Positions 37,633 to 50,136 of a stretch of 64,000 nt of DNA are shown in pieces. Below the pieces are notes generated by a model. It saw only the letters and a program-made list of their open reading frames with translations, ran no database searches and was not told the origin of the DNA. Position numbers and translations under genes: made by a program. The stretch spans positions 1 through 64,000 of the forward strand of contig JAJEFE010000021.1 in NCBI GenBank assembly GCA_022820625.1, written 5' to 3'. Numbering within the stretch: position 1 is the first letter of the stretch; each line of letters begins with the position of its first letter. The stretch comes from Gammaproteobacteria bacterium (GTDB lineage: Bacteria > Pseudomonadota > Gammaproteobacteria > Steroidobacterales > Rariloculaceae).

Positions 37633-38649
37633 ATGAGATACACGAAGTCCTTCGCCCTGAGCATCGTGCTCGCCTCTCCGGCCTTCGGTCATCACAGCGA
37701 TGCGGGTCTCGACATGGAATCAGTGGTCACATTCGACGGCACCGTCACGGAATTCGCCTGGCGCAACCCGCATGTCTACACGACCGTCGAGACGACGAAC
37801 GAGCGCGGCGAATCGGTCGAGTGGGCGCTGCAAATGGGTTCGGCGCTGGTCATGGGACGCAGGGGCTGGTCGCGCGACGCATTGGAGGTCGGCGACCGCG
37901 TGACGGTGCACGCCCATCCCTCTGTGGACGGGCGGCCGTACGGCATATTGGACTCGATCGAGAAGGAGGGAGGCATCACCCTTTCCACGGCTCCCTCTCC
38001 GCCTGAAGCTACTGCCGTTGCCTCCACCCTGGCAGGCATCTGGCTGGCGGACGGTTCGCAGCTTGCCAGCTACCCGGGCGGGTACGACGGTTTCTTCACG
38101 GCTAACCTCGTACTCACTGAAGCGGGCAGAGCCGCCCGGGACGAGTACGATCCAATGTCCGCCGACAATCCCGAATCGACCTGCGTCGGACGCCCGACGC
38201 CGGGGATGATCGTCTCCAGCGGTCTCTACCCGCTGGAAATCCGGATCGGCGAGGACGAGGAAATCATCGAAATCCGCACCGAATACTGGGACGAGCGGCG
38301 CACGGTGTACATGGATGGGCGGTCGCATCCGCCGACGGAAGAACGATTCGATTCAGGTTTTTCTATCGGGTCGTGGGAAGACGATACGCTTGTGGTCGAT
38401 GTCCGAAATTTCTCGGACCATCGCTCGCCGTACCAGATTGGCGTTCCCTCGGGAGGTCAGAAGCGCGTCGTGGAAAGATATCGCCTGCTCGAGGACGGCA
38501 CCCGAATCTCGCTGGAATTCACGGTGGAAGATCCCGAGTACCTCGCAGAACCCATGTCCGCCACCTGGGAACTGATCTATTCCCCGCACCTGCAGCTCTC
38601 GACATTCGATTGCGATCCCGAAGCCACGAGGCGCTTCCTGCCTGAATAG
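37633..38649 (+). CDS. Exported DUF6152-type protein, paralogue A
   Basis: A 338-residue secreted protein. The signal peptide ends ASPAFG, giving a mature N terminus starting H20-H21. The DUF6152 domain spans about 20-125: FAWRNPHV with H47, LVMGRRGW, and VGDRVTVHAHPSVDGRPYG. The C-terminal 200 residues contain TCVGRPTPG, GSWEDDTLVVDVRNFSDH and end FDCDPEATRRF; the two Cys may form a disulfide. The family has no known function. GGAGGG precedes the ATG by 6 bases. It resembles paralogue C most (both have SPYQIGVPSG). Confidence 0.8.
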   Translation: MRYTKSFALSIVLASPAFGHHSDAGLDMESVVTFDGTVTEFAWRNPHVYTTVETTNERGESVEWALQMGSALVMGRRGWSRDALEVGDRVTVHAHPSVDGRPYGILDSIEKEGGITLSTAPSPPEATAVASTLAGIWLADGSQLASYPGGYDGFFTANLVLTEAGRAARDEYDPMSADNPESTCVGRPTPGMIVSSGLYPLEIRIGEDEEIIEIRTEYWDERRTVYMDGRSHPPTEERFDSGFSIGSWEDDTLVVDVRNFSDHRSPYQIGVPSGGQKRVVERYRLLEDGTRISLEFTVEDPEYLAEPMSATWELIYSPHLQLSTFDCDPEATRRFLPE

Positions 38650-40362: not shown

Positions 40363-41376
40363 CTAATAAACCTCGCAGTCGTAAGGCTCGATCTCCTCGC
40401 CCAGCGCCAGCCAGTGCCCGGCAATCGTCGCAGGTTCGGTGAAGACAACAGGGTCGACGGTGGTGATGTGGTAATCGATGCGGCTCTGGTCGTCGCTCAG
40501 GGTGAAGCGCTCGGTGACCTCGGCGGCGTCGCTTTGGGGCGTGCCGCGGGTGTCGTAGTAATTCCAGTCGATATGCGTGGTTTCCACCACCAGCGTATTG
40601 TCTTCCCAATGGCCGATCGAGTAGCCAAGCCGTGAGGGAACCACGTCTTCGGGAGGCGTCGATTGATCCAAGTGAATCGTCCGAACGAGGTCGTACATCT
40701 CCAATCGAAGCAATATCCAGTCGCCCTCATCCACGAATTCATAAGGGTGCGGATACCACATGAGCCGCGGCATGCCGGCCGGTTCGCACCGAACCGAAAA
40801 GTTGTCGAGTGGATCGAACGCTTCTCTCTCCGCGATGGCGAACTCCGTCAGCGGCGTGTGCATTTCGCGCCTGTTGACCTGCGGAATGCTCCAGACCCGA
40901 AAGATCCCCCTGTCCTCGACAACCGTATCCTCCAGCACGTCCTCGAACTGGCTGGTCACGCCGTCCCTGATCAGCAGGACGCGGTCCCCGTCGGCGAGCA
41001 CCATCTCGGCGGCCAGGAAATCCGCGCCTTCGATCATCGATTCGTGACCGCCCACCACGACGCGATCTCCGACCTGAATGCGGTCCCGCGTAAAACCCGC
41101 CCGGACCAGGTAGTAGATCGAGTTGGTTTCGACCCCCACAAGCTCTTCTTCGCCCGCGTCATTCTCCATCCGCAAGGAAAACTTCACGTGCGGATTCCGC
41201 CACTGCAATTCGACAATTTCACCCTCCATCTCAGTGAACTCGTCAGAGAAATAGGCCTGGGAATGATGGCCGTGCGCGACGCCCGGCAGGAAAAACGCCA
41301 CCGAGAGAAGAACTGGCCAGACTGATTTCCCTGTGGTCGCTGCAGGAAAACTTGATTGGCGGTTGCGATGGTGCAT
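40363..41376 (-). CDS. Exported DUF6152-type protein, paralogue B
   Basis: A 337-residue protein. After a long n-region the signal peptide ends GVAHG and the mature protein starts H37-H38. The NPH histidine is H63 (LQWRNPHVKF). The W-type motif is LVRAGF. The C-terminal part has RCEPAGMPRLMWYPHPYEFV, a middle Cys region, GHWEDNTLVVETTHIDW, and ends EPYDCEVY with the conserved Cys 3 residues from the end. It shares the E/G type of C-terminal domain. It is last in the minus-strand set. Confidence 0.8.
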   Translation of the reverse strand: MHHRNRQSSFPAATTGKSVWPVLLSVAFFLPGVAHGHHSQAYFSDEFTEMEGEIVELQWRNPHVKFSLRMENDAGEEELVGVETNSIYYLVRAGFTRDRIQVGDRVVVGGHESMIEGADFLAAEMVLADGDRVLLIRDGVTSQFEDVLEDTVVEDRGIFRVWSIPQVNRREMHTPLTEFAIAEREAFDPLDNFSVRCEPAGMPRLMWYPHPYEFVDEGDWILLRLEMYDLVRTIHLDQSTPPEDVVPSRLGYSIGHWEDNTLVVETTHIDWNYYDTRGTPQSDAAEVTERFTLSDDQSRIDYHITTVDPVVFTEPATIAGHWLALGEEIEPYDCEVY

Positions 41377-41442
41377 GGCGCTGATTCTCCTGCCGGGAAG
41401 GAATGTGGAATTGGAGCCTTGAGACGGTGCCTTGAAAAACTT

Positions 41443-42462
41443 TCAGCGTACGAAACGACCCGCCGCTTCCGGGTCGCAGTTGTGACGGAACATTTCTTCG
41501 TGGGGCGAGTAAACCAGTTCTCTGCTGTGTACGAGCGGTTCTGCGATGTACTCGGGGTCTTCCAGCATGAACTCCGCTGCCATGCGCGTGCCGTTTTCGA
41601 TCAGCCGGTAGCGCTCGATGACATGCTTCTGCGGTCCCGAGGGAACGCCGATCTGGTACGGGGAGCGATGATCCGTGAAGTTCGTGGTGTCGATGACGAG
41701 GGTGTCGTCTTCCCACCGGCCGATCGAGTGGCCCGTGGCAAAGCGCTCGTCGGCGCCGGGATGCTCTCGGCCATCCAGATAGATTGTTCGCTCTTCGTCG
41801 AAATACTCCGACCGGATGAACAGAATCTCGCTGTCTTCGTCGAGCTCGAATTCCAGCAGATAACCCGCGCTGGAGACGAACGCAGACGGTGTGGGACGGC
41901 CGATGCAGGTGGACTCGGGGTTCTCGGCGGACAGCGGGTCGTACGCAGCCTGGGCCGCCAGGCCCTGTTCGGTCAACTTGAGCTGGGCGTGGAAAAAACC
42001 GTCGAACCCGCCCGGATAGGAGATGAGCATGGATCGGTCCGCCCGCCATTTGCCCGTCAGGCTCGTGGCCGCTGCGTCGGCCGGTCCATCCGGCGCTCCG
42101 GCGGCGGGCGTCAGCCCCAACCCGCCTTCCTTTTCGATGGACTCCAGCAAACCGTAAGGCCGGCCATCCTCTGCGGGGTGGAGACGAACCGCGACCTGAT
42201 CGCCGGCCGTGAGGGTGTCCGCCCTCCAGCCTCGGCGCGACAGCCCATTGACGCCGCCCATCTGCAGAGTCCACTCCATGCTCTCGCCGTTAGCGGCCGT
42301 GGTTTCCACGAGGACGTAAGCATGCGGATTCCGGAAGGCAAACTCGGTAACGGACCCTTCGATGGCGACGATGGAGTCCACATCCATTCCCGCATCGCTG
42401 TGATGGCCGGCAATGGGCATCGCCGCCAGGTAAACCGCCGCAAGTAACGCGTATCGTCTCAT
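41443..42462 (-). CDS. Exported DUF6152-type protein, paralogue C
   Basis: A 339-residue protein starting at ATG 42462, 7 bases after AGGAG. The signal peptide ends AMPIAG; mature start H20-H21, NPH at H47 (FAFRNPHAYV), and LSRRGW. The C-terminal domain has TCIGRPTPS and GRWEDDTLVIDTTNFTDH. It ends with HNCDPEAAGRF, so the usual aromatic-Asp-Cys reads His-Asn-Cys. It is a close relative of paralogue A, 5 kb away and in the opposite orientation, so the two look like an inverted duplication. Confidence 0.8.
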   Translation of the reverse strand: MRRYALLAAVYLAAMPIAGHHSDAGMDVDSIVAIEGSVTEFAFRNPHAYVLVETTAANGESMEWTLQMGGVNGLSRRGWRADTLTAGDQVAVRLHPAEDGRPYGLLESIEKEGGLGLTPAAGAPDGPADAAATSLTGKWRADRSMLISYPGGFDGFFHAQLKLTEQGLAAQAAYDPLSAENPESTCIGRPTPSAFVSSAGYLLEFELDEDSEILFIRSEYFDEERTIYLDGREHPGADERFATGHSIGRWEDDTLVIDTTNFTDHRSPYQIGVPSGPQKHVIERYRLIENGTRMAAEFMLEDPEYIAEPLVHSRELVYSPHEEMFRHNCDPEAAGRFVR

Positions 42463-42486
42463 TGCCGATCTCCTCTGCGGGGGCAT

Positions 42487-43413
42487 TCAATCAAGATTGA
42501 CCCTCACTCTCGAATGGTCCGGCTGCAGGTCATAGCGAATGCGCCTGCCCTCTTCATCCAGAATCGTCAGGGATTGCTGAAACACACCCTGGGGCGGGGT
42601 ATCCGCCGTGACGGTTGCCTCCAGAATGTAGAGCCGGTCCGCGTGCCTGTAGATGCCGGCGTAGGTGCGGGTCTGGTCGGGGTTCGTGAGGAAAAGCTGG
42701 TGCCCGCCGATGAAGTCGACGTGGTGCCAGGCATCGTAGGTGACTTCGCCATCGCGCAGTCGAAACTGCTGGGCGGCATAGGCAATTGCGCCCATCTGCG
42801 TGTAGAGCCAGAAATTGCCGGCTCCGGAAACATTGATCTCGTCCGCCAGTTGATCATAGACATTCCTGGCATCAGAGAAGTCCACCACGGTGACCGAGTA
42901 GTAGTTGTCGCCATCGTATGATTCGTAGATAGTCGAGGGGAACGTGCCACCGTATTCGGAAAGATATGGCGCCTCGCTGATCTCGGGTTCGCTCGGGAAG
43001 TTGGCCGAAAAGAGCTGATCCGGATAGGCGAGATTGGTCCAGCCGGAGGCACCTTCAACGGCCGGATTCGACGCTCGGATCTCTATGTCCGTAATGAAGC
43101 AGCCATTATCGCCGTCACGCGTCGGGGTGCAGATGACCGAAAGGTGGTCTCCCTCTGCGATGGCATCCCATCCCGCTCTACTGAAACTGCCGGTTCCCCC
43201 GCCCTCCAGCGCCCAGCGCTCGGTCTCGCCGTTCTCGTTTTCCACATCCATGAAGACCCACACATGCGGATTGGCGAAATGGAATTCAGTCACTACGCCC
43301 TGAAACTGAATTTCCCGGCCGATTTCGTAGTTGCCGTGGGAATGGTGTGCGAGCGTAGCGCTTGCGAAGGCGAGAATTCCTGCAATTGCCGCAGTTACCA
43401 GTGTTTTTGTCAT
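42487..43413 (-). CDS. Exported DUF6152-type protein, paralogue D, different C-terminal domain
   Basis: A 308-residue protein from ATG 43413, with GGGAGG 5 bases upstream, starting 1 bp from the end of the dehydrogenase gene. The signal peptide ends ATLA; mature start H23-H24 followed by SHG, so three His lie in the first four residues. NPH is H50 (FHFANPHVWV) and the aromatic motif is FSRAGW. From about residue 115 the sequence differs from the other paralogues: YLSEYGGTFPSTIYESYDGD, then a beta-rich region, without the WEDxTLVV and terminal Cys motifs. Coupling to the dehydrogenase gene suggests a joint function. Confidence 0.75.
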   Translation of the reverse strand: MTKTLVTAAIAGILAFASATLAHHSHGNYEIGREIQFQGVVTEFHFANPHVWVFMDVENENGETERWALEGGGTGSFSRAGWDAIAEGDHLSVICTPTRDGDNGCFITDIEIRASNPAVEGASGWTNLAYPDQLFSANFPSEPEISEAPYLSEYGGTFPSTIYESYDGDNYYSVTVVDFSDARNVYDQLADEINVSGAGNFWLYTQMGAIAYAAQQFRLRDGEVTYDAWHHVDFIGGHQLFLTNPDQTRTYAGIYRHADRLYILEATVTADTPPQGVFQQSLTILDEEGRRIRYDLQPDHSRVRVNLD

Positions 43414-43414
43414 C

Positions 43415-44950
43415 TCAGCCTCCCTGAGGCGATCCAAGGCGAAGGATTCTTGAGCCGCTGGCGTGTTCGATCAGCAGGAGTAGGTCGCCCTCCGCGTCGA
43501 CGGCCACGTCCCGAATTCGGCCGATCCCGTCCACGAGCATCTCCTGTTCGACCGAACCGTCGCCGCCGATCGAGAAGCGAAACAGTGCGTTGGCCTTCAG
43601 CGACCCCGCGATCAGGTCGCCGTCCCAGCCGGGGAATGTGTCTCCCCGATAGACTACAACGGCCGAAAGCGCAGGTGACGGAATCAGGTCCACCACGGCC
43701 GATCGCATCCCGCTCCCGTCGAACTCGACCTCGAACAAGTCCACGATCGACGACCCATCATAATGCACACCGCTCGTCACCAGCGGCCACCCGTAATTCC
43801 CGCCCCCTACAATCAGATTGATCTCGTCGCCGCCACGGGCACCGTGTTCGGTGCTCCAGAGCCTGTCGGTTACCGGATCGTATTCCAGCCCCTGGGGAAC
43901 GCGATGCCCGAGCGTCCAGATCGATTCGATGGCGCCTTCAACGCCGACGAACGGGTTGTCCGGTGGAATGCTCCCGTCTTCGGAGACGCGGAAGATCTTT
44001 CCCCATGGTCTGCCCAGGTCCTGGATTCCCAGATCATAGAAGCCGTTCTTCGCGCCGACCGAGAAATATACGTGGCCGTCGCGGTCCAGGGCAATTCGTC
44101 CACCCAACGAAAGATCGGTGCCCGGCGTGTAGTGCTCGTAGGCGCTGCCCCAGATCGTCTCTTCGTCGATCCACGCGCCATCGCGGATTCGGCCGCGAAC
44201 GATGCGGGTCATGGAAACCGGGACGTTTCTCTCGCGGCTGACCTCGTTACAATCTTCGCAGCGGTCACCGTAGTAGAGGTATATCCAGCCATTCTCCTCG
44301 TAGTCCGGATGCAACGCGGCCTCGTGCATCCAGCCCATTCCCCGATCCAGTGCACGGGGACCTTCGGGAATCGTGCTGTCACCGTAGACCCTCGGCGTGC
44401 CGGAGACCACCTCGGATTGATGTCCGTCGGCGGAGATGAAGCTCAGGCCGCGTTTCTTTTCGGTGAGCAGTAGCCGACCGTCGGGAAGGGGCGCGATCGA
44501 ATACGGAAGAGGCGCCAGATCCTCGATCAGCGGAACCAGAACAAAGTCATGATGCTCGCTGTTCTGAACACCACCCGGTATCCCGATCTGCGCCCGGACG
44601 CCGTAGTGATCGTAGGTGTAGCCCTGGCGCTGTTCGAGAATGTAGATGGCGAGGCTCTGGATCTGGTCCGGCGCAAGGACACCTTCGTAGGCGGGCATTT
44701 CCGCCTCAGTATTGCCGACGCGAATACTCGTCTGCAGCGCCTCGGTCGAAGCACCGCCCGGGAGTTCCGCACCGACCAGCGGGGTACCGAGCGCCGTGCC
44801 TTCCAACGCCGCGCCGTGACAGGCGGAGCAGACATCCTGGTACAGGTCGCCCACGGCACCGTATCTCGGCTGCGCGAGCGCCGCGGTACCGGTCATCAGG
44901 GAAGCCGCTACGATGGCGGTCAAAAAACTACGGAGCCCCCTATTCGTCAT
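43415..44950 (-). CDS. Cytochrome c-PQQ sugar dehydrogenase fusion
   Basis: A 511-residue exported protein. The signal peptide ends near ALAQ. A c-type haem domain has CSACH (about 41-45), with the Met ligand probably in EMPAYEG. From about 130 a six-bladed PQQ-dependent soluble sugar dehydrogenase (Asd/YliI-like) follows: SIAPLPDGRLLLTEKKRG, MHEAALHPDYEENGWIYLYY, LGHRVPQGLEYDP, STEHGARGGDEINLI, NYGWP. It would oxidise an aldose or related alcohol in the periplasm and pass electrons to its own haem. ATG 44950 is chosen over two upstream TTG codons. First gene of the minus-strand set with DUF6152 paralogues D, C and B. Confidence 0.85.
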   Translation of the reverse strand: MTNRGLRSFLTAIVAASLMTGTAALAQPRYGAVGDLYQDVCSACHGAALEGTALGTPLVGAELPGGASTEALQTSIRVGNTEAEMPAYEGVLAPDQIQSLAIYILEQRQGYTYDHYGVRAQIGIPGGVQNSEHHDFVLVPLIEDLAPLPYSIAPLPDGRLLLTEKKRGLSFISADGHQSEVVSGTPRVYGDSTIPEGPRALDRGMGWMHEAALHPDYEENGWIYLYYGDRCEDCNEVSRERNVPVSMTRIVRGRIRDGAWIDEETIWGSAYEHYTPGTDLSLGGRIALDRDGHVYFSVGAKNGFYDLGIQDLGRPWGKIFRVSEDGSIPPDNPFVGVEGAIESIWTLGHRVPQGLEYDPVTDRLWSTEHGARGGDEINLIVGGGNYGWPLVTSGVHYDGSSIVDLFEVEFDGSGMRSAVVDLIPSPALSAVVVYRGDTFPGWDGDLIAGSLKANALFRFSIGGDGSVEQEMLVDGIGRIRDVAVDAEGDLLLLIEHASGSRILRLGSPQGG

Positions 44951-45114
44951 TGACAACAATGCGCTCTCCGTTCGAATTTCGCATCAAGCACGCTTTCGTT
45001 CCCAATATTGCCTTCCCAACCGTCATACAGACAAATGGCGCTGGGGCGCAGCTTCCAATTGAGGGGCCGGCAAGGCACCATCGAATAGCATAATGTGAAC
45101 AGAGGAACAGAAAT
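44951..45114. promoter_or_regulatory. Central divergent promoter region of the DUF6152 locus
   Basis: This 164-bp gap separates the dehydrogenase/D/C/B set from the E/SnoaL/F/G set. It contains an AT-rich CATAAT near 45090 upstream of paralogue E and AGAGGAA as its ribosome site. Shared control of both sets from here is likely. No palindrome was recognised. Confidence 0.5.
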
Positions 45115-46134
45115 ATGAAAAGAAGTAGGGGAGTCCTTTTTTTTCTGAGCAGCACGCTTGTGTGCTCCCACGTGCTGGCTCATCACGCGTTCGTGGAGTT
45201 CGATCGGAGTCAGGTTGTCGAAGTCGAGGGCGAAGTGGTCAGTGTGCTGTGGGCCAACCCTCACATTCGCTTCTCGATACGATCAACCGACGAGAGCGGC
45301 ACGGAAACTGTCTGGAGTGTCGAAGGATCGTCGCTCAGCATCATGAGCCGGATCGGCATCACCGAGGATGTCATTACCCCGGGCGAGTACGTCAGGGTGG
45401 CCGGCTCGCCGGCCAGGAACGGCGACCCGCGCATGACCGTCAGCAACGCGCTCGTTTCGGGCCAGGAATTTGTCCTTGGATCCCGCACCGCTCCACGCTG
45501 GGAGGAGACAGCGGTGGGTACGGATCACAACTTGATGGCGGGTGGGACGGTATCGGAAGACGCCACAATATTCCGTGTCTGGAGCACGGATGGAGACGAC
45601 CCGCACAGTAATACACCTGGCTTCTGGCCGGATGACTATCCGCTGACGGAAGCCGCTCGAGTTGCCCGGTCCCAGTGGGTGCCCATAGCCGGTTCCGAGT
45701 GCGAGACCAAGGGAATGCCGACGATCATGGAGCAGCCATATCCGATCCAGTTTGTTCAGGAGGGCGCCGACATCGTTCTGCGAATGGAGGAATACGATAC
45801 GGTTCGAACGATTCGCATGGACGACACGGAAGCGGCCGAAGCGCCTGCAAGGTCACTCCTGGGATACTCGAAGGGACACTGGAAGAACTCCACGCTGGTC
45901 GTCGAAACGTCGGCTATCGACTGGGCCTACTTCGACAAGGAAGGCATCCCTCAGGGGGACGCCATGAGCATCGTCGAGCAATTCACGCCCAGCGAGGACG
46001 GCAGCCGACTCGAATACACGATAACGGTCACGGACAGCGAAGTCTTCACCGAACCCGTGACGCTCGAGCGGCATTGGGTCTGGCGTCCCGGCGAAGAAAT
46101 CAGACCGTATGACTGTACGTGGGGAGAAGGTTAG
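45115..46134 (+). CDS. Exported DUF6152-type protein, paralogue E
   Basis: A 339-residue protein. The signal peptide ends SHVLA; mature start H23-H24, NPH at H50 (VLWANPHIRF). The aromatic motif is degenerate (IMSRIGI). The C-terminal domain has SECETKGMPTIMEQPYPIQF, GHWKNSTLVVETSAIDWAYF and ends RPYDCTWGEG. It is close to paralogue B. First gene of the plus-strand set. Confidence 0.8.
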   Translation: MKRSRGVLFFLSSTLVCSHVLAHHAFVEFDRSQVVEVEGEVVSVLWANPHIRFSIRSTDESGTETVWSVEGSSLSIMSRIGITEDVITPGEYVRVAGSPARNGDPRMTVSNALVSGQEFVLGSRTAPRWEETAVGTDHNLMAGGTVSEDATIFRVWSTDGDDPHSNTPGFWPDDYPLTEAARVARSQWVPIAGSECETKGMPTIMEQPYPIQFVQEGADIVLRMEEYDTVRTIRMDDTEAAEAPARSLLGYSKGHWKNSTLVVETSAIDWAYFDKEGIPQGDAMSIVEQFTPSEDGSRLEYTITVTDSEVFTEPVTLERHWVWRPGEEIRPYDCTWGEG

Positions 46135-46207
46135 GATAGGTATGCCAGGCGCGAACAGGCAGCAATGGCACACTAACAGCGAAAAACGGGACAAGAGGGA
46201 AAGAATC

Positions 46208-47251
46208 ATGGCCACGAGACGCAAATTTCTGAAGAACAGTCTGACGGCAGGTGCTTACATTGGCCTGGGCCTGCCCGGCGTGCGCCTGGCCTCCGCGCAG
46301 GACACCACGGATGAGGAGGCCCGCAACAAGGCCGTTGTCAGGCGCTTCAAGGAATCCCAGGGAACCGACGAGTACGAGCAGGTGCTTGCCGAGGTGATGT
46401 CACCGGACTTCCAAAGGCTTCGAGGCGGATTCGAGAACCTGGCGACGAACGCGGCGGGGTCGGAACTGGCGGAAGCGGCTCAACCAGTGCGCACGGCGTT
46501 TCCCGATCGCACGGATACGATCGACCTGATGATCGCAGACGGGGACAGGGTGGGCATGCGGTTCCGCGTCCAGGGGACGCACGAAGGCAACTTCTTCGGT
46601 ATTCCGGCAACCGGAAAGACCATCGACATTACGGAAGTCGGCGCGTTCAGGCTCGAGGACGGCAAGATCGTCGAAGCCTGGTTCATGGCGGACGAGGTTG
46701 AACTGCTCAAGCAGTTGGGCGTGGGACTGCCCGCACGGCAGGACGGCCAGCGAATCGTTCCGGTACCGGCCAGGCAGTCGCGCCCCGGCCAGGCCACCCT
46801 TGAGGAAATCCTGGCGGCGCCGGTGGACTCGCAAACCTACCGCAACAAGGTGGTGGTGTCCGCCTACAAGTCGGAATTTCCTCCTCCGGGCGTCTTGCCC
46901 GATCGGCCCGGCCGGCCCTACGACGTGTATCTGCGCGGCGGATTCAAGCACTTCGTCGACTACGGAAATGCAAACAGCCTGAGCGACCAGGGCATCGGAC
47001 AGGCGTTTCCGGACCGCCAGGACAAGGTCGATTTCGTGCTCGCCGAGGGCGACACCGTTTGGATCCAGTTCAGGCTGAGCGGCACGCACGGTCGCAGTCT
47101 GTTTGGTATCCCGCCGACCAATCGCCATATCGAGGCCGCGGAGGTGGGCATCATGACGTTCGACGGCGCCCGCTGGGACACGGGCTGGTTCTTCGGAGAC
47201 GACCTGGGGATGGCGCTACAGCTCGGCGTTCCGGACCTCTTCAATTCATGA
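46208..47251 (+). CDS. Tat-exported protein with two SnoaL-like domains
   Basis: A 347-residue protein. TRRKFLKNSL followed by GAYIGLGLPGVRLASAQ is a twin-arginine signal, so it is folded before export, perhaps with a cofactor. Residues of about 50-190 and 215-345 are each SnoaL/polyketide-cyclase-like: FPDRTDTIDLMIADGDRV and FPDRQDKVDFVLAEGDTV are equivalent, as are GTHEGNFFGIPATGKTI and GTHGRSLFGIPPTNRHI. SnoaL folds bind small hydrophobic ligands, and some catalyse aldol or ester cyclisation. It lies between DUF6152 paralogues E and F, 73 and 49 bp apart. GAGGGA lies upstream of the ATG. Confidence 0.8.
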   Translation: MATRRKFLKNSLTAGAYIGLGLPGVRLASAQDTTDEEARNKAVVRRFKESQGTDEYEQVLAEVMSPDFQRLRGGFENLATNAAGSELAEAAQPVRTAFPDRTDTIDLMIADGDRVGMRFRVQGTHEGNFFGIPATGKTIDITEVGAFRLEDGKIVEAWFMADEVELLKQLGVGLPARQDGQRIVPVPARQSRPGQATLEEILAAPVDSQTYRNKVVVSAYKSEFPPPGVLPDRPGRPYDVYLRGGFKHFVDYGNANSLSDQGIGQAFPDRQDKVDFVLAEGDTVWIQFRLSGTHGRSLFGIPPTNRHIEAAEVGIMTFDGARWDTGWFFGDDLGMALQLGVPDLFNS

Positions 47252-47300
47252 CCGGCACGGGGTAGCAGTCAAACCACACAAGTACGGTTGGGTAGGAAAT

Positions 47301-48362
47301 TTGATACGAATACGCGCATGTGCTGCGGCGATGACGGTGCTGCTCGGCACTTCGTCGCCGCTGCGTGCGCATCATGGCTCGGCGCCCCACTTCGACCCCG
47401 ACGACCAGGTCAGGCTGGATGGCATCGTCACGGAATTCAGGTTCGTCAACCCCCATGCCTTCGTCTATTTCGATGCCACTGACGCCAATGGCGAGAGCGT
47501 CCCATGGCGTTGCGAACTCTCCGGAGCAACGCTCCTCGGACGGCAGGGCTGGACGCCGGAATCGCTGGTTCCCGGACAAAGGATCGAAATTGTAGGCAAC
47601 AGGGCGCGGCGCGAAGAAAACGCTTGCGGCATGCGGTCGATCACTGCCGGCGACGGCCGCGCCATCGGCAACGAGGACACCGGGCAAGCGGACGTCAGAC
47701 CCGTCGCCGATCCGGGCAGCGCGGCGTCGCGCCCACGATACCTTGAGAACGGGCAGCCCAACATCAGCGGGACGTGGGTCTCGCGCCAGGGAGGAGGCGC
47801 CGGCGGAATCCTGACCAACGGTCCGCCCGAGCGAACGGAGGCGGGACTGGCCGCCTCGAATGCCTTCGACGTCAGATTCGACAACCCGGTGATCAACTGC
47901 GAGAGTGGAAACATCATCACCGACTGGTATCGGCAATCGCATGTGAACGACATTCGGCAGAGCGACGACCGGGTCGTCATCCGCTACGGCTACCTGGAGA
48001 TGGTTCGAACGGTGTTCCTGGACGCCGAGCACCCGGATAACGTCGCGCCGAGTGTCGCTGGCCATTCCGTCGGCCGGTGGGAGGATGATGTCCTGGTTGT
48101 GGATACCATCCGGCTCTCGGAAAGGGCGCTGATACCGTTGTCGGCAGTGATGATGAGCGATCAGGCGCACGTCGTGGAACGCATTCACTATGACGAGGAG
48201 AGCCAGACGTTGATCCGCGACTACACGGTACAAGACCCGCTCTATCTGGCAAAGCCCTACAGCGGCCGCAACGTATCGGATATCGCCGCCGAACCCTATC
48301 GGCCGTTCGACTGCGTCAACCTGAGCGGCGAGAACAATCAACGACCCGAGTCAGGCGAATAA
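47301..48362 (+). CDS. Exported DUF6152-type protein, paralogue F
   Basis: A 353-residue protein with a TTG start; GGAA lies 4 bases before. The signal peptide ends SSPLRA; mature start H24-H25, NPH at H52 (FRFVNPHAFV), LLGRQGW. An insertion of about 40 residues (124-165) links the domains. The C-terminal domain has INCESGNIIT, GRWEDDVLVVDTIRLSE and RPFDCVNLSG near the end. It is more diverged than A-C but keeps both His sites and both Cys. Confidence 0.75.
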   Translation: MIRIRACAAAMTVLLGTSSPLRAHHGSAPHFDPDDQVRLDGIVTEFRFVNPHAFVYFDATDANGESVPWRCELSGATLLGRQGWTPESLVPGQRIEIVGNRARREENACGMRSITAGDGRAIGNEDTGQADVRPVADPGSAASRPRYLENGQPNISGTWVSRQGGGAGGILTNGPPERTEAGLAASNAFDVRFDNPVINCESGNIITDWYRQSHVNDIRQSDDRVVIRYGYLEMVRTVFLDAEHPDNVAPSVAGHSVGRWEDDVLVVDTIRLSERALIPLSAVMMSDQAHVVERIHYDEESQTLIRDYTVQDPLYLAKPYSGRNVSDIAAEPYRPFDCVNLSGENNQRPESGE

Positions 48363-48400
48363 AGCCCACCACAAGAGCGGTGTTCGCAAGGAGCCTATTG

Positions 48401-49378
48401 ATGAAGATTACAAGACTGCTAATTGCATCAAGCCTGCTGCTGACGGCGAATCACGCCTCGGCACACCACAACTGGTCGGCAATCTACGACGTGGAATCCG
48501 ACATAGAAATCGAAGGCGTGATCAGCTCGATTCAGTGGAGAAACCCGCACGTTCGGGTCAGCTTCACCGTCAACGAGGGCACGGCAGAGGAAATGGTCTA
48601 TACCACGGAGAGCAACTCGGTCTCCTCCCTGACTCGCATGAATGTGACCGAGGACGTACTCACCGTCGGCACGAGAGTGCGGGTGGCCGGTTACCGGTCA
48701 CGCAGCCGCGATGACGATATCTTCATGAATCACCTGCTGCTGCCGGACAACCGCGAAGTCATCTTCCTGCGCACGGCCGAGCCCCGCTGGCCGGACGCCA
48801 CCCGCATCGGCAACACCGACCGGTTGCATGGTCGGGTGGTTGAAGAGGATTTTGCCAAGCGGCCAACCTCGATCTTTGCGGTCTGGAACACGGTTTACGG
48901 TGCTCAAGGCAGCCATCAGGCTCTGCGATTCCCGGGGGGAGAGTACACGATCGATTACGGGACGGAGCGGGGTACGGGCGGCTGCGCCTCCAAGGATGTG
49001 TGGGCACAGATGGGGGCGCCGTACCCCATCCAGCTCATCGACAATGGCGACACGGTCATCATCCACGCAGAAGAATTCGACACCATACGCGAAGTTCACA
49101 TGGGCATCGATCACGACGACCCGGGCACCCACACGAACAATCTCGGTTATTCGACCGGCCGCATGGACGGCAACAGGCTCCTTGTGACCACCACATTCGA
49201 AGGCAGCGACTCGCCAATCCAGCTCTACGAAACCTTTCAGCTCAGCGCAGACCACAGCCGACTGCTCTACACGTCCACCCTGGTCGACCCGACTTCGAAC
49301 AACGCACCGACGGTAGCCAGCAAGTGGTGGGAATATCAGCCCGGCGCCTTCGTGCAGCCGTTCGACTGCAGTCCGTAG
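48401..49378 (+). CDS. Exported DUF6152-type protein, paralogue G
   Basis: A 325-residue protein. AAGGAG precedes ATG 48401 by 7 bases. The signal peptide ends NHASA; mature start H22-H23, NPH at H50 (IQWRNPHVRV). The aromatic motif is degenerate (LTRMNV). The C-terminal domain has GGCASKDVWAQMGAPYPIQL, GRMDGNRLLVTTTFEGSD in place of the WED motif, and ends QPFDCSP. Last gene of the plus-strand set; it relates to B and E. Confidence 0.8.
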   Translation: MKITRLLIASSLLLTANHASAHHNWSAIYDVESDIEIEGVISSIQWRNPHVRVSFTVNEGTAEEMVYTTESNSVSSLTRMNVTEDVLTVGTRVRVAGYRSRSRDDDIFMNHLLLPDNREVIFLRTAEPRWPDATRIGNTDRLHGRVVEEDFAKRPTSIFAVWNTVYGAQGSHQALRFPGGEYTIDYGTERGTGGCASKDVWAQMGAPYPIQLIDNGDTVIIHAEEFDTIREVHMGIDHDDPGTHTNNLGYSTGRMDGNRLLVTTTFEGSDSPIQLYETFQLSADHSRLLYTSTLVDPTSNNAPTVASKWWEYQPGAFVQPFDCSP

Positions 49379-49487: not shown

Positions 49488-49826
49488 CTACAGACTCAAG
49501 ACCAAGCGTATACCGTCTTCAACCTGTCGCAACACGGCGTCAGATGCACGACCAGCTCGTTCAGTGAGGAAACGCCTGTCCAACGTGACGATCTGCGACA
49601 CGTTGATGACTGACTGCCGCAGCAGGCCTGATCCGCGTCTGGGCAGGGAAACGTTTCCCGGTGCTGCAGACAACTTCAGGTTGGAGGTGATGGCAACGCC
49701 AAGAATGGTGCGAATCCGGCTGCGATTAAAGTCGTCAGACTGAACTATCAGAATCGGCCGGCGGAAACCGGGTTCGGAGCCCGCCGGTTCACGCAACTGG
49801 GCCCACCAAATCTCGCCGCGCTTCAC
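49488..49826 (-). CDS. mazF: MazF/PemK endoribonuclease toxin
   Basis: A 112-residue PemK/MazF toxin. It starts KRGEIWWAQLREPAGSEPGF, with RRPILIVQSDDFNRS, TILGVAITSN, LRQSVINVSQIVTLDRRFL and a C-terminal helix, the full family pattern. It cleaves mRNA at short sequences. The GTG start overlaps the antitoxin stop (GTGA), and both appear intact. Confidence 0.9.
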   Translation of the reverse strand: MKRGEIWWAQLREPAGSEPGFRRPILIVQSDDFNRSRIRTILGVAITSNLKLSAAPGNVSLPRRGSGLLRQSVINVSQIVTLDRRFLTERAGRASDAVLRQVEDGIRLVLSL

Positions 49827-50068
49827 TTCCAGTCTTCGATAGGCAGGGAGCGAACCTGAAGTGCCTGCAACTCTTCGTCGAGCGCCGAATCGGAGCCGTC
49901 CGCACCGTAGACCTCATTTAACCTTTCGGTGACACGTCGCCTGAAATGCCGGGAGACAAATTCCCTGACGGCCGTGGAATAGAGTTCGCTGCGCGACATA
50001 CCCAGTGAACGAGCCAGGCCCTCTGCTGCCTCGAAGATATCGTCTCGAATGGAGATTGCGGTTTTCAC
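49823..50068 (-). CDS. Ribbon-helix-helix antitoxin of MazF
   Basis: An 81-residue protein from GTG 50068. VKTAISIRDDIFEAAEGLAR followed by SLGMSRSELYSTAVREFVSR is a ribbon-helix-helix. The acidic tail (SDSALDEELQALQVRSLPIEDWK region) should bind MazF. A longer start (50104) would place the upstream palindrome inside the gene and is less likely. Confidence 0.85.
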   Translation of the reverse strand: MKTAISIRDDIFEAAEGLARSLGMSRSELYSTAVREFVSRHFRRRVTERLNEVYGADGSDSALDEELQALQVRSLPIEDWK

Positions 50069-50083
50069 AACCGGGAGTATGAC

Positions 50084-50098
50084 TGGGGTTATACCCCA
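50084..50098. promoter_or_regulatory. Palindromic operator of the MazF module
   Basis: TGGGGTTATACCCCA is a perfect inverted repeat (TGGGGT, TAT, ACCCCA) 16 bp upstream of the antitoxin start. Its position over the expected promoter fits autorepression by the antitoxin. Confidence 0.65.
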
Positions 50099-50136
50099 AA
50101 GCAACCCGTTGGATGGCTATACAAGACGTGCCTGGT

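Follow-up and report, generated by a model that had tools for sequence, protein, structure and literature searches.

Copper-binding proteins often begin with a histidine, and CopC passes its metal to the membrane protein CopD. The DUF6152 family (PF19649), to which all seven paralogues of the locus described here belong, is uncharacterised, and CopC-CopD (and YcnJ) copper acquisition is among its closest described counterparts. In both, a small secreted β protein with an expected N-terminal histidine is found beside a CopD-like protein with several transmembrane segments. DUF6152 differs in its predicted OB-fold, which replaces the CopC fold, in its barrel partner domain, in its more than 100 copies, and in that most of the copies in the genome studied here lack the membrane partner. 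The CopC profile (PF04234) has no match anywhere in this genome, so the DUF6152 genes do not match it. A second counterpart is the mono-histidine-brace protein YcnI/DUF1775, which was suspected from its N-terminal histidine and its linkage to CopD and was then shown to bind Cu(II) (PMC8424229). It shares with DUF6152 a conserved histidine after the signal peptide and CopD or CopD-like neighbours (PMC8424229). However, YcnI uses one histidine with a glutamate and a nearby tryptophan, whereas DUF6152 has three histidines, and YcnI is not known to be expanded; we claim no relation between the two. In LPMOs and other histidine-brace copper enzymes, the motif that DUF6152 would share is an N-terminal histidine combined with a second histidine (PMC10952591). 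The histidine-brace families listed in the same source include AA9-AA17 and Bim1, and DUF6152 is not among them (PMC10952591). Large expansions also occur among them, some fungi having as many as 60 genes (PMC10354095). Unlike LPMOs, DUF6152 is predicted to be built on OB-fold and calycin scaffolds, and no activity on polysaccharides is known for it.

We propose, with moderate confidence, that DUF6152 proteins are secreted metal proteins with an N-terminal histidine, that the metal is probably copper, and that they resemble CopC-CopD but have been expanded and joined to ligand-binding domains.

The DUF6152 locus

The locus lies at 37.6-49.4 kb of the window, the whole 64,000-nucleotide stretch of DNA that was analysed. 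Its features are as follows.

37633..38649, + strand: paralogue A, long form (DUF6152 OB domain and barrel domain), PF19649 87 bits
40363..41376, - strand: paralogue D, long form, PF19649 53 bits
41443..42486, - strand: paralogue C, long form, PF19649 78 bits
42487..43437, - strand: paralogue B, DUF6152 OB domain fused to a PsbP/Mog1/DcrB-like domain, PF19649 84 bits
about 42490-43044, - strand: PsbP/Mog1/DcrB-like domain of B
43415..44959, - strand: secreted cytochrome c and GSDH-type (glucose/sorbosone) PQQ dehydrogenase, PF07995 5e-85, PF13442 1.8e-9
45115..46134, + strand: paralogue E, long form, structure modelled, PF19649 73 bits
45181..45186, + strand: His1-His2 codons, predicted mature N-terminus of E
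45262..45264, + strand: His28 codon of E (NPH motif, in a loop between strands 1 and 2 of the model)
46205..47251, + strand: Tat-exported protein with two SnoaL-like domains, PF07366 3.6e-37 in two stretches, TIGR01409, start inferred at the Tat motif
47301..48362, + strand: paralogue F, long form, PF19649 72 bits
48401..49378, + strand: paralogue G, long form, PF19649 54 bits, start by codon model

Independent gene calling with a codon model reproduced the open reading frames and strands, and together with Pfam it bears out the layout of the original prediction, in which two divergent gene sets carry six paralogues and the seventh, A, lies nearby. All seven score 53-87 bits against a PF19649 cut-off of 27, as expected for DUF6152-type proteins. 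The predicted PQQ dehydrogenase, SnoaL-like protein and Tat substrate are likewise recovered by PF07995, PF07366 and TIGR01409. The dehydrogenase consists of an N-terminal cytochrome c (Cytochrome_CBB3) and a GSDH domain. The SnoaL protein scores 19.5 bits for the Tat signal (cut-off 16.7); its open reading frame was first listed as 46109-47251, and the true start is probably the Tat motif at 46205. The proteins carry predicted signal peptides, in agreement with the periplasmic setting that had been suggested, and we found no mention of DUF6152 or DUF6644 in the papers searched, in keeping with the view that this composition was undescribed.

The description of the seven as paralogues of one type holds for the N-terminal domain, which is present in all of them, but not for the C-terminal half: six share a barrel-type domain, and B carries a different one. 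The copies are diverged, as had been stated. Apart from the pair A and C (60% identity) and two kin outside the locus (C63 and C9), the best full-length matches in the genome are ~33-48%. Local tandem duplication was ruled out as the origin of the seven, given that their full-length identities are 33-60% and that copies at other places in the genome match them as well or better.

Invariant histidines and predicted domains

The host genome, a draft assembly of 4.56 Mb in 169 contigs with about 5% contamination, holds 148 DUF6152 domains by profile search. In 147 of them a pair of adjacent histidines stands after the hydrophobic signal segment; the remaining copy is truncated. Nearly all copies have this pair at a site of the A-x-A type, and the residue preceding H1 is A, G or S in 142/147. 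In the alignment of the 147 paralogues, complete invariance within the N-terminal domain is confined to H1, H2 and H28; the invariance of H1-H2 is partly set by anchoring the alignment on this pair, that of H28 is not. Judged by the alignment, H2 and H28 could each serve as the second conserved histidine ligand. The HH...PH pattern also recurs in all 20 homologues taken from further families of the phylum, mostly single-copy and down to 43 bits. Signal cleavage was judged with a rough home-made rule, not a trained predictor, which cut exactly before H1 in 85/145 copies, by far the modal position, and in 77/145 when the pair was masked; the best site lay elsewhere, mostly upstream, in the other 60. 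Since this cut is modal but not universal, the mature protein likely, although not provably, starts at H1.

In our proposal, H1, H2, H28 and the free N-terminal amine would bind one metal ion in a site like the histidine brace, and this ion would most likely be Cu(II). We favour a copper site because of the three invariant histidines, two of them at the likely N-terminus, and the CopD-like partner, a pattern as in YcnI/DUF1775. If copper is bound, the OB-fold would be an addition to the known scaffolds of the histidine brace.

The fold assignment comes from an AlphaFold2 model of mature E (87-sequence alignment, pLDDT 90.8, pTM 0.89). Its residues 10-94 form a five-stranded OB-fold that matches PriB with Z 9.6 (2.3 Å over 81 residues) and single-stranded DNA-binding proteins with Z about 9. 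A sequence comparison of the long form with the PDB gave only PriB and phage ORF34 (E 0.07-1), which agree with the OB-fold and say nothing on function. The C-terminal domain is modelled as a barrel that resembles those of calycins and fatty-acid-binding proteins, with Z up to 8.7 (3.5 Å over 115 residues), a match at Z 8.5 (2.4 Å over 105 residues) and several that fit at 2.4 Å over 105 residues, values just above the background for models without relatives. C174 (82/82) and C312 (81/82) of the barrel are conserved and may form a disulphide, and R209 and E266 are also conserved. The C-terminal domain of B is unlike that of the other 84 long forms. Its AlphaFold2 model, built from three sequences with pLDDT 67, resembles the PsbP/Mog1/DcrB fold (Z up to 10.9), and domains of this type are also found as separate genes.

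The likeness of the barrel to fatty-acid-binding proteins suggests another explanation. DUF6152 proteins could be metal-free periplasmic receptors or chaperones whose barrels bind small hydrophobic molecules, each copy a different ligand, while the histidines would be structural or bind a proton or an anion. This would fit the conserved cysteines and R209/E266 of the barrel as well as the large number of diverged copies, whose neighbouring enzymes vary, and expanded families of solute-binding proteins offer an analogy. However, it leaves unexplained why three histidines, likely at the N-terminus and in a loop, are invariant and are kept in short forms that have no barrel and in distant homologues, and it does not account for the CopD-like partner. 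TonB receptors, moreover, are not enriched nearby (15/83, p=0.76). We regard this explanation as unlikely.

The copper-site proposal could also make use of the barrel. The small ligand that meets the metal site would differ from copy to copy and would probably be hydrophobic, and the outcome would be metal-assisted binding or oxidation of that ligand in the periplasm. An extension that we consider improbable would make DUF6152-barrel proteins copper-dependent oxidases or peroxygenases of a new class, which would act on small hydrophobic molecules through a histidine brace set on an OB-fold; a single uncultured family of Gammaproteobacteria would then hold more than 100 copies per genome, each specialised for its substrate.

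Partner genes of DUF6152

With a barrel-domain profile, 51 separate barrel genes were detected in the DUF6152 loci, whereas 16 background stretches with 264 genes gave none. These barrel genes accompany the short form of DUF6152: in the host genome a separate barrel gene lies beside 31/62 short copies versus 2/85 long ones (p=2e-12), the pairing was replicated in other genomes (17/26 versus 8/91, p=1e-8), and it holds in distant lineages too. The pair thus occurs both fused and split, which argues for joint action of the two domains.

In other lineages the gene after DUF6152 encodes DUF6644, a protein with 4-5 transmembrane segments. DUF6152 is present in all 31 genomes that carry DUF6644 (hypergeometric 1e-35, which overstates independence because the genomes are related), within 300 bp of it in 21 and within 5 kb in 29. 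Two of 21 DUF6644 members match the CopD profile (best 6.8e-9), 11 of the 21 match DUF2214 weakly, and one transmembrane histidine is invariant. The host genome has only three DUF6644 matches against 148 DUF6152 domains, so the expanded copies cannot depend one-to-one on DUF6644. At one of the few sites in the genome that retain this membrane partner (L064:5452-6445), two DUF6644 genes adjoin DUF6152 and two separate barrel genes.

These linkages would allow the following course of events. In a probable ancestral form, DUF6152 would supply its CopD-like neighbour DUF6644 with a metal or with electrons. In the host family, DUF6152 would then have multiplied to more than 100 copies while the linked DUF6644 was mostly lost, and the expanded copies would have acquired the calycin barrel, or less often the PsbP/Mog1-like domain, either fused to them or encoded next to them. 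On the sequence evidence, a nameless pair of DUFs becomes a metal-handling module that can be tested, its residues and partners being named.

The original prediction also tied the paralogues to an electron-transfer enzyme. This stands as a modest link to PQQ enzymes, 8/14 of whose PF01011 genes lie within 5 kb of DUF6152 (p=0.003, on 14 genes only), but not for GSDH enzymes: a general linkage to them was rejected, with 1/5 of the GSDH genes of the genome near DUF6152. Electron transfer could itself be the function, in which case the histidines would hold haem or copper and DUF6152 would be an electron relay that connects dehydrogenases, of the PQQ type or others, with DUF6644, possibly a b-haem protein. 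The PQQ enrichment, the cytochrome c dehydrogenase of the window and the invariant transmembrane histidine of DUF6644 speak for such a relay, as do a PQQ-type enzyme grouped with barrel and DUF6152 genes, with or without DUF6644, at two loci in distant families (L189 and L191, the latter enzyme named by eye) and a cytochrome b561 beside DUF6152 at a third (L188). It is rather unlikely, however, given the small number of PQQ genes, the GSDH result, and the absence of a redox partner near most copies.

A general linkage to TonB receptors was rejected as well, with 15 of 83 within 5 kb. The genome has about 85 TonB receptor barrel matches in its 4.56 Mb, a large set in its own right. A TonB receptor, PQQ dehydrogenase or cytochrome b561 adjoins DUF6152 and barrel genes at L188-L193 in the distant families. 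The enzymes neighbouring DUF6152 copies are varied; a raw Pfam tally of operon neighbours, made without a background set and from which no enrichment is claimed, includes sulfatases and metallo-beta-lactamases.

Family-wide expansion and the cluster in relatives

DUF6152 occurs in 22/22 genomes of the host family, with 4 to at least 140 copies each, the highest count being a lower bound. It was found in 0/11 genomes that represent 11 further families of the host's order, in 5 others of a class sample of 230 genomes, with one copy each, and in 45 of 396 other genomes of the phylum, with at most 8 copies; phylum members outside the host family that have it are usually single-copy. By a rough estimate, about 1/30 of the genes of the host genome belong to one uncharacterised secreted family, a scale of copy number that, to our knowledge, few protein families reach in bacteria. 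The best within-genome identity is 40-50% for 102 copies, which indicates that nearly all copies are old. They are clustered above chance (64 have another within 3 kb versus 26 expected), and the largest group comprises 13 copies in ~25 kb (contig C127, 6443-30953; L059-L061). This group is rich in separate barrel-domain genes.

The seven window paralogues are part of the 148, and chance is excluded. The cluster has a core that is conserved in part, and the modules around this core change between genomes. Dehydrogenase orthologues with 90-93% identity are found in two genomes of the same genus, G001 and G005. In G005 the dehydrogenase (93%) and SnoaL (96%) genes stand head to head with E absent between them, D is absent between an acyltransferase and C, and C is conserved; on another contig, F, G and a TonB receptor follow in succession. 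In G001, A is missing at the corresponding site, the E orthologue (80%) is followed by a P450-like gene (by eye; L101:1283-2449) instead of SnoaL, a small SnoaL_4 protein comes after B, and SnoaL, F and G are conserved together. Farther away, in G009, no DUF6152 or SnoaL gene was found within the 20 kb read around a dehydrogenase homologue (49%).

That the six or seven paralogues, the dehydrogenase and the SnoaL protein form one conserved multi-component pathway, as first suggested, is thus largely refuted and very improbable: the spacing is close, the arrangement is divergent, and parts of C-B-dehydrogenase and of SnoaL-F-G are kept among genomes of the genus, but A, D and E come and go, the E-SnoaL linkage is broken, the distant dehydrogenase homologue stands alone, and single copies are the rule, as 104/123 DUF6152 transcription units hold one copy, the scattering named beforehand as contrary to a shared pathway. 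The window cluster would instead be several DUF6152 modules gathered around one dehydrogenase operon. As a whole the earlier interpretation is partly supported, and the interesting feature is the family-wide expansion with its recurrent partner domains rather than the local cluster as a pathway.

The interval between G and the TonB receptor differs within the genus. The stretch that is missing there in G005, and has no match in G001, holds in the window, at 49488-50104 on the - strand, a small pair that resembles, by eye, a toxin of the MazF/PemK type and a ribbon-helix-helix antitoxin.
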